From the NCBI GenBank assembly GCA_937930845.1, contig CALHBJ010000011.1:62001-126000 (forward strand): a stretch of DNA of 64,000 nucleotides. The letters run 5' to 3'. Source of the stretch: an uncultured Rhizobiaceae group bacterium. Its GTDB lineage: Bacteria; Pseudomonadota; Alphaproteobacteria; Rhizobiales; Rhizobiaceae. Positions 37,278-39,376 of this stretch are shown here, in pieces. Position 1 is the first letter of the stretch. Every line of letters starts with the position of its first letter. The notes under the pieces were generated by a model that was not told where the DNA came from, made no database searches, and saw only the letters and a program-made list of their open reading frames with translations. The position numbers and the translations under genes were made by a program.

Positions 37278-37369
37278 AAACTCTTCCAAACCAGCGATTC
37301 CGCAAAATCTGAAAAAATGAATCAGTTGGGACACCGAACCACTGGGGTTTGCATGTCTTGAACACATCA

Positions 37370-37398
37370 TTAACCGATCAGGTTAACGGCAGGTTACC
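37370..37398. promoter_or_regulatory. palindrome plus CtrA-like half sites upstream of ctrA/fliJ
   Basis: TTAACC-GATCA-GGTTAA (37370-37386), overlapping TTAA-N7-TTAC (37383-37397). Confidence 0.5.
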
Positions 37399-37628
37399 GT
37401 GGAAGGGTTTAGTAATAACAATTAATGAGAACCTAATCGGGCAAGGGCGAATAAAGGACTGCTTATTGTAGGTCGGGCGGCAATTTTGGCCTCACCATCA
37501 ATAAAATCCATCCCGGTTAGGAACATTTTTAACATTTGCAGGTCATAACGGATGCGTCCACGGAGTTTGCGTGGAAGCGTCGCGTGTATTGTGGCGGTGA
37601 GTATCACGCTGATGCGGGAGTATTGAGT

Positions 37629-38191: not shown

Positions 38192-38563
38192 CTAAAACGT
38201 TGATCTGAATGTGCTGTGGCCAAAGCTGTCAAAGCTGTTGTTCCCGAACTGACCACTGTTGCGAAAGCTGCTGTGGCCATGGACATCGCCACGCCTCAAA
38301 TTATTGTTGCGGTTGAAATTCCGGCTCAACAGGCGGCCAAGGCTGCGATTTAAAGTAATGCCGCGATTGTTGCGAACACTGCGCGTGCTGCGTGAGGCAC
38401 GGTTGGTTGTAAATTGCACCTGTTTAGCCACAACCGGCCCATCAATTGGCACAAAATTGGCCCTGTTTGATGCGAAATCTGATGAAACAGCGTGAGCTGT
38501 TGCTGCCATTGGCAAGGTTAAGAGACCGAGCGCTGCAACAAGTATTTTTAGGGAGGCCTTCAT
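38192..38563 (-). CDS. small secreted basic protein, Arg/Asn/Ser-rich, unknown function
   Basis: Signal peptide MKASLKILVAALGLLTLPMAATAHA; body rich in R/N/S; ends STFRSTF; RBS AAGGAAAG upstream. Confidence 0.7.
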   Translation of the reverse strand: MKASLKILVAALGLLTLPMAATAHAVSSDFASNRANFVPIDGPVVAKQVQFTTNRASRSTRSVRNNRGITLNRSLGRLLSRNFNRNNNLRRGDVHGHSSFRNSGQFGNNSFDSFGHSTFRSTF

Positions 38564-38656
38564 TTTGTTTCTTTCCTTATCCCGCGCACCCTGTCGGGGC
38601 TGAATTGTCTGTTGGAGGCAGGGCCGGCTACCAACCGGCCCTGGTCTTTTGGATTT

Positions 38657-39025
38657 TTAGAATTTGAAACTGCCATGGAAACCGCGATGGCCGTGGCCAC
38701 TGTGGAAGCTAAAGCTGCGGCCGGAGTGGAAACCCCGGTGACCACGGAAATTCCGATGGCTGCGGACGCCGCGATGATTGCGGAAACCACGATGGCCACG
38801 GAAGCTGCGGCTGGAGCGGAACCCCCGGTGACCACGGAAATTCCGGTGGCTGCGAAATCCGCGATGGCGTTTAAACTTCACTTCAGTAGCGCCCAAAGGC
38901 GCTTCTACTGATGCCGCGTTGGTCAGGTTCAAACCAACCGATGGAGCCGCTGAATGGGCTGCGGAGACAAATGGAATGGCCAGAAGGCCAACGGCGGCTG
39001 CGATCATGGTTGCTGTTTTTTTCAT
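38657..39025 (-). CDS. small secreted protein with tandem (H)RGFRS-type hexapeptide repeats, unknown function
   Basis: Signal peptide MKKTATMIAAAVGLLAIPFVSAAHSA; HRGFRS HRNFRG HRGFRS SRSFRG HRGFRN HRGVRS HRNFRG HRGFHS GRSFSF; RBS GAAGGAAA upstream. Confidence 0.75.
   Translation of the reverse strand: MKKTATMIAAAVGLLAIPFVSAAHSAAPSVGLNLTNAASVEAPLGATEVKFKRHRGFRSHRNFRGHRGFRSSRSFRGHRGFRNHRGVRSHRNFRGHRGFHSGRSFSFHSGHGHRGFHGSFKF
38705..38866 (-). repeat. 18-bp coding tandem repeat (nine hexapeptide units)
   Basis: Nine 18-nt units; exact 23-nt copies CCCCGGTGACCACGGAAATTCCG at 38733-38755 and 38823-38845, 90 nt (5 units) apart. Confidence 0.85.
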
Positions 39026-39376
39026 TTTTCAATTTCCTTCTTTCATACGCCCACTGGGAGCCGGATTGTTATCTCGTTGTCTTGCAGGCGGCTGTCTCAG
39101 CTTTATTAGAAGCGACGGCATCGTCTGCTGCCCCCTACAGATTGGCATGCAAACACCAACCCACAAGGTGCTTCACGCCGATGTCACTCAGCGTGATTAG
39201 GAACCATTTGATCTAATATTATTCGTTATTTATCAGATAGATAATACGACACGGAAAGAAGATTTTTGGAAAAAGCCCGCACTGCGATGTGCGTAAACGC
39301 ACACTTTCAAACAATAATTTTCTCATGCCCCTTGGCAATTTTGCCAATTATTGGGTGCCGCGACGCCTATCAGCAC

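Follow-up and report, generated by a model that had tools for sequence, protein, structure and literature searches.

The DNA examined in this work (referred to below as the window) is a stretch of 64,000 nucleotides, which forms part of a 307-kb contig from a genome of 3.76 Mb, and its host appears to be a marine alphaproteobacterium belonging to the genus Ahrensia or placed near it. On the minus strand of the window are found two adjacent genes coding for small, putatively exported proteins, the features of which are listed in Table 1. One of these, the array gene, had been described in the first-pass annotation as a secreted hexapeptide-repeat protein; it is a genuine open reading frame with an ATG start and a Shine-Dalgarno sequence, and both its hydrophobic lead, recognized by its sequence pattern, and its His/Gly/Phe-rich tail agree with that description. 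The other gene, a diverged paralogue, was not mentioned there and represents a putative second exported gene beside the array gene.

Table 1. Features of the array gene, its paralogue and the region between them
Feature	Position	Strand	Basis
Hexapeptide-array gene, 122 aa, basic, putatively exported	38657..39025	-	ORF, Shine-Dalgarno, frame-specific synonymous excess between units
Shine-Dalgarno AAGGA of array gene, 9 nt upstream of ATG	39035..39039	-	Sequence reading
Signal-peptide-like N-terminus, residues ~1-24, MKKTATMIAAAVGLLAIPFVSAAH	38954..39025	-	Sequence pattern (lysine and hydrophobic lead)
TEVKF, residues 47-51, preceding the array; common to relatives; V-x-x-V in BA14K proteins	38873..38887	-	Motif-before-array test
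Eight tandem hexapeptides, residues 54-101	38723..38866	-	Period-6 analysis
Degenerate Gly/His/Ser/Phe tail, residues 102-122, ending in GSFKF	38660..38722	-	Sequence
90-nt direct duplication, copy 1, containing the 23-nt exact copy 38733-38755	38686..38775	-	Sequence comparison
90-nt direct duplication, copy 2, containing the 23-nt exact copy 38823-38845	38776..38865	-	Sequence comparison
Diverged paralogue, 123 aa, decayed Asn/Arg/Ser-rich array, ending in FRSTF	38192..38563	-	E 1.6e-11, 31% identity; own Shine-Dalgarno AAGGA
GC-rich hairpin in transcript between the two array genes	38619..38643	-	No U-run on minus strand

The protein encoded by the array gene consists, in order, of the hydrophobic lead, a spacer with TEVKF at its end, the array and the tail. 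The array was earlier read as nine hexapeptides of the form (H/S)R(G/N/S)FR(S/G/N). A tandem array is indeed present, but it contains eight units in register (viz. HRGFRS, HRNFRG, HRGFRS, SRSFRG, HRGFRN, HRGVRS, HRNFRG and HRGFHS, followed by a degenerate GRSFSF), and only six of them fit the strict pattern, as unit 6 has V in place of F and unit 8 has H in place of R. The period-6 identity of this protein is 0.52, a value reached in none of 10,000 shuffles of its residues. After removal of the lead, the mature protein (98 residues) would have a pI of about 12, with 21 Lys/Arg, 12 His and 2 acidic residues, and AlphaFold predicts it as coil with low confidence (pLDDT 52).

When all pairs of the eight units were compared in the coding frame, a pS of 0.74 and a pN of 0.25 were obtained (ratio 0.34), whereas in the five other frames of the array, two sense and the remainder antisense, the corresponding ratio ranged from 0.62 to 1.25. 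As this excess of synonymous change is seen in the coding frame only, it indicates that the peptide is under purifying selection, a lack of which had been named beforehand as an outcome that would speak against the gene, and that the array is not young. The results thus support both translation in this frame and constraint on the peptide. The recent expansion proposed in the first-pass annotation is limited by the same values to, at most, the 90-nt pair, the bulk of the array being old. The exact 23-nt copy recurring at a distance of 90 nt, on which that proposal was based, is present, and no other 23-mer is repeated within the 64-kb window; the two copies of the 90-nt duplication are 79% identical. 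An antisense open reading frame (38612-38911) was rejected as a gene, since the selection signal in the antisense frames of the array is weaker or absent.

The paralogue shares its lead and spacer with the array gene; the alignment of the two spacers was matched by none of 2000 shuffles, and the counterpart of TEVKF in the paralogue is KQVQF. The hairpin between the two genes is not a standard terminator on the minus strand, because the U-run is lacking. In relatives from the same genus, the genes for CtrA and a FliJ-like protein are kept together, and among the eight such relatives read after fliJ (G009 over 227 bases only), an array gene is present at this position only in G005. In a search for CtrA boxes, the array genes showed no full site, the one-mismatch site at 38871 falls within the open reading frame, and the number of sites over the whole window is not above that expected by chance. 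Three one-mismatch sites of the CtrA type (TTAA-N7-TTAA) lie at 37359-37436, between the CtrA-like and FliJ-like genes; their clustering would fit autoregulation, the window total again being not above chance. Promoters of the EcfG type (GGAAC-N15-18-[CA]GTT) are absent within 250 nt upstream of both window genes.

No match for the window pair, or for a profile of proteins containing only the array (array-only proteins), was found in Pfam, NCBIfam, PHROG or PDB, and a plasmid search also gave no match. A scan of the genome contigs with the window protein as query likewise found nothing, perhaps owing to its low-complexity repeats. A search with the single protein identified relatives in some members of the genus and in other families. 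With a profile built from ten proteins, matches were obtained in 9 of 15 genomes of the genus at an E value of 1e-3 and in 30 of 249 genomes of the family at 1e-5. At 1e-6, it matched 28 of 398 genomes of the order, while the sample of the class yielded 4 of 289 and that of the phylum 6 of 399 (these counts include G000). Among the matches listed for the class and phylum samples, all are from the same class or closer. Homology searches yield genuine relatives across the alphaproteobacteria, mainly in Hyphomicrobiales, but their distribution, both there and within the genus, is patchy.

The array-only proteins of several families contain HRGFR, GRGFR, SRGFN or FKRHH units and they vary in length and repeat number. 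In units picked by an R-x-aromatic pattern, a choice by which the first Arg and the hydrophobic position are already set, a further Arg follows at a distance of three residues in 59% of array-only units and 57% of those from BA14K proteins (PF07886, discussed below), whereas the His position is occupied by His in 37% and 12% of them, respectively. Within the genus, there is also a subfamily of His-rich, small, putative exported proteins (L151:1100-1420, L153:976-1299, L188, L189, L195 and L202), which end in GIYLGF or similar, an aromatic pattern recalling the beta-signals of outer-membrane proteins; the window pair is also F-terminal. Left-handed beta-helix proteins with hexapeptide repeats (PF00132 type) have a six-residue period in common with the window protein; however, the latter has no Pfam match, its units are aromatic (F) and charged rather than aliphatic, and it is predicted to be disordered.

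The statement that the protein belongs to no named family holds for the databases searched, but it overlooked a link with the N-terminal arrays of BA14K proteins. The N-terminal half of these proteins, similar to the window pair, consists of a signal peptide (in the window pair a putative one), a spacer of about 20 residues, a V-x-x-V motif and Arg-rich RGF/RGY arrays, and in some genomes their genes also occur in tandem. The V-x-x-V motif, which is not part of the Pfam model, precedes the Arg-rich array in both window proteins. Of 19 array-only proteins, 11 have it directly before the array, against a null mean of 1.8; for the BA14K proteins the count is 18 of 29, against 3.0, and neither count was reached in any of 5000 shuffles. 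Within the same genus, BA14K proteins with an array before PF07886 are present at L038 (RNRGFR-like units, E 1.9e-13), L041 and L046, while outside the genus at least 20 of the 27 family loci that were found with the array-only profile and read are BA14K proteins. Further, of 18 array-only loci for which long flanks were at hand, three, from a genus member (L046) and two other families (L206 and L212), have a BA14K gene within 1.5 kb of the array-only gene. In two of them (L206:7804-9593 and L212:8142-9670) the order is array-only gene, decayed-array paralogue and BA14K gene, which echoes the window pair. The spacers of the array-only and BA14K proteins can be aligned at L212 (4 of 2000 shuffles reach this score) but not at L206 in G301 (455 of 2000). 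Between the window spacer and that of L038 the alignment is weak (28 of 2000). A profile of the BA14K N-terminus separates array-only from other secreted proteins moderately (AUC 0.75, where the controls possibly include family members).

The window pair differs from BA14K proteins in several regards. PF07886 is not matched by either protein up to an E value of 1, in comparison with scores of 40-54 bits for the BA14K relatives against a gathering score of 26; cysteines are absent, whereas C129 and C153 are invariant in BA14K set A2; and the Gly-rich hydrophobic segment which precedes the domain in the A2 consensus is not found. In an AlphaFold model of a BA14K relative, the array is disordered (pLDDT 43-49) and the BA14K domain (residues 121-158) is folded (pLDDT 88-93). 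A BA14K-type model had no match in PDB by fold, and the BA14K profile gave there by sequence just two weak matches to unrelated chains. EcfG-type promoters, absent from the window pair, precede 9 of the 29 BA14K genes, compared with a null mean of 0.17, and none of the 19 array-only genes, but this contrast separates the two classes poorly, because it is confounded by taxon, the BA14K genes of the Ahrensia group also being without such a promoter. Extra-generic BA14K genes with such a promoter upstream are found at L048, L102, L125, L137, L139, L140, L141, L148 and L149. The array gene is real and coding, and it represents a variant beside the BA14K family and outside PF07886; due to the absence of the domain, the cysteines and the hydrophobic segment, the products of the window pair are not BA14K proteins but probably domain-less relatives of them, and a kinship with that family is likely.

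The explanation that we favour, and to which about even chances can be given, is that the window gene and its paralogue encode, as a protein standing alone, the array module that is otherwise N-terminal to the BA14K domain in envelope proteins of Hyphomicrobiales, while the Gly-rich hydrophobic segment is missing, as is the folded domain with its cysteines. After its presumed export, the protein would remain disordered and act as a flexible polycation on anionic polymers of the envelope or matrix, such as LPS phosphates, acidic polysaccharide or extracellular DNA, which the regularly placed Arg and Phe (and here also His) could hold through charge and cation-pi/aromatic contacts, the strength of this hold being tuned by repeat number and composition. 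Polyanion or matrix binding is our best guess from composition, as a mature protein with so high a pI and so few acidic residues points to a polyanion as its most likely ligand. The BA14K proteins of Brucella are described as secreted and lectin-like, with regulation by envelope stress and general stress (PMC10592609, PMC12354254, PMC11466379), which is, by analogy, compatible with an envelope or glycan-binding setting.

A tentative alternative, distinctly less probable than not, is that Arg/Gly/Phe arrays have arisen convergently by repeated slippage in signal-peptide proteins of low complexity, so that the likeness to BA14K is one of composition only. Short and biased sequences can converge, the distribution is patchy and the separation by the BA14K N-terminus profile is just moderate. 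In addition, an RcnB-domain protein (PF11776; L215) from another alphaproteobacterial lineage carries NRGFRND arrays before its domain, and such arrays are therefore not exclusive to BA14K; RcnB proteins of this kind resemble the window protein, itself putatively exported, in export and in their Arg/Gly/Phe/Asn repeats, but the window protein lacks the RcnB domain and the host genome lacks RcnB. Against this alternative stand the shared V-x-x-V motif, the homology of spacers, the repeated finding of array-only and BA14K genes in tandem, and the selection at the peptide level. A periplasmic protein handling metals or heme, in which His at every sixth residue together with aromatics would bind Zn, Cu, Ni or heme, could be suggested from the presence of 12 His among the roughly 98 residues of the mature protein, from small relatives rich in His within the genus (L151, L153, L189) and from the RcnB-linked array; but this is unlikely. 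Relatives have Asn, Gly, Ser or Arg at the His position, and His is mostly not retained there in the syntenic G005 protein and in the window paralogue, whereas the Arg and aromatic residues persist, so that a His-based site is not the conserved feature, and the heme/metal-binding surface proposed in the first-pass annotation is weakened. The protein is also without Cys, RcnB is missing from the host genome as noted, and no metal gene was noted adjoining the array gene.

We regard it as similarly improbable, or slightly more so, that the protein is a self-associating (phase-separating) extracellular matrix or holdfast-like glue held together by Arg-Phe cation-pi contacts, as the regular spacing of Arg, Gly, Phe and His and the predicted disorder would allow, for it has about 100 residues and 8 repeats only and no secretion-system or polysaccharide gene adjoins it. 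Least probable by far is a cationic antimicrobial or bacteriocin-like peptide cut from a precursor: the high charge and putative export signal would suit it, but no processing, immunity or export genes were noted alongside, the array is long, and the relatives vary in length and repeat number.

A broader and rather speculative suggestion is that the fast-evolving exported Arg-aromatic arrays of Hyphomicrobiales envelopes, whether they stand alone or are joined to a BA14K or RcnB domain, may serve as interchangeable disordered tethers that bind polymers; the array-only genes would then accompany those with a fused domain, and the window pair would be a free-standing case. In Brucella, BA14K proteins are surface antigens regulated by stress; they are also common in Rhizobiaceae, and Pfam models only their last 30 residues. 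That the array occurs by itself, is subject to selection and is found more than once next to a BA14K gene suggests that it has a function of its own as a module, and the window protein provides a small subject for testing what this array binds.
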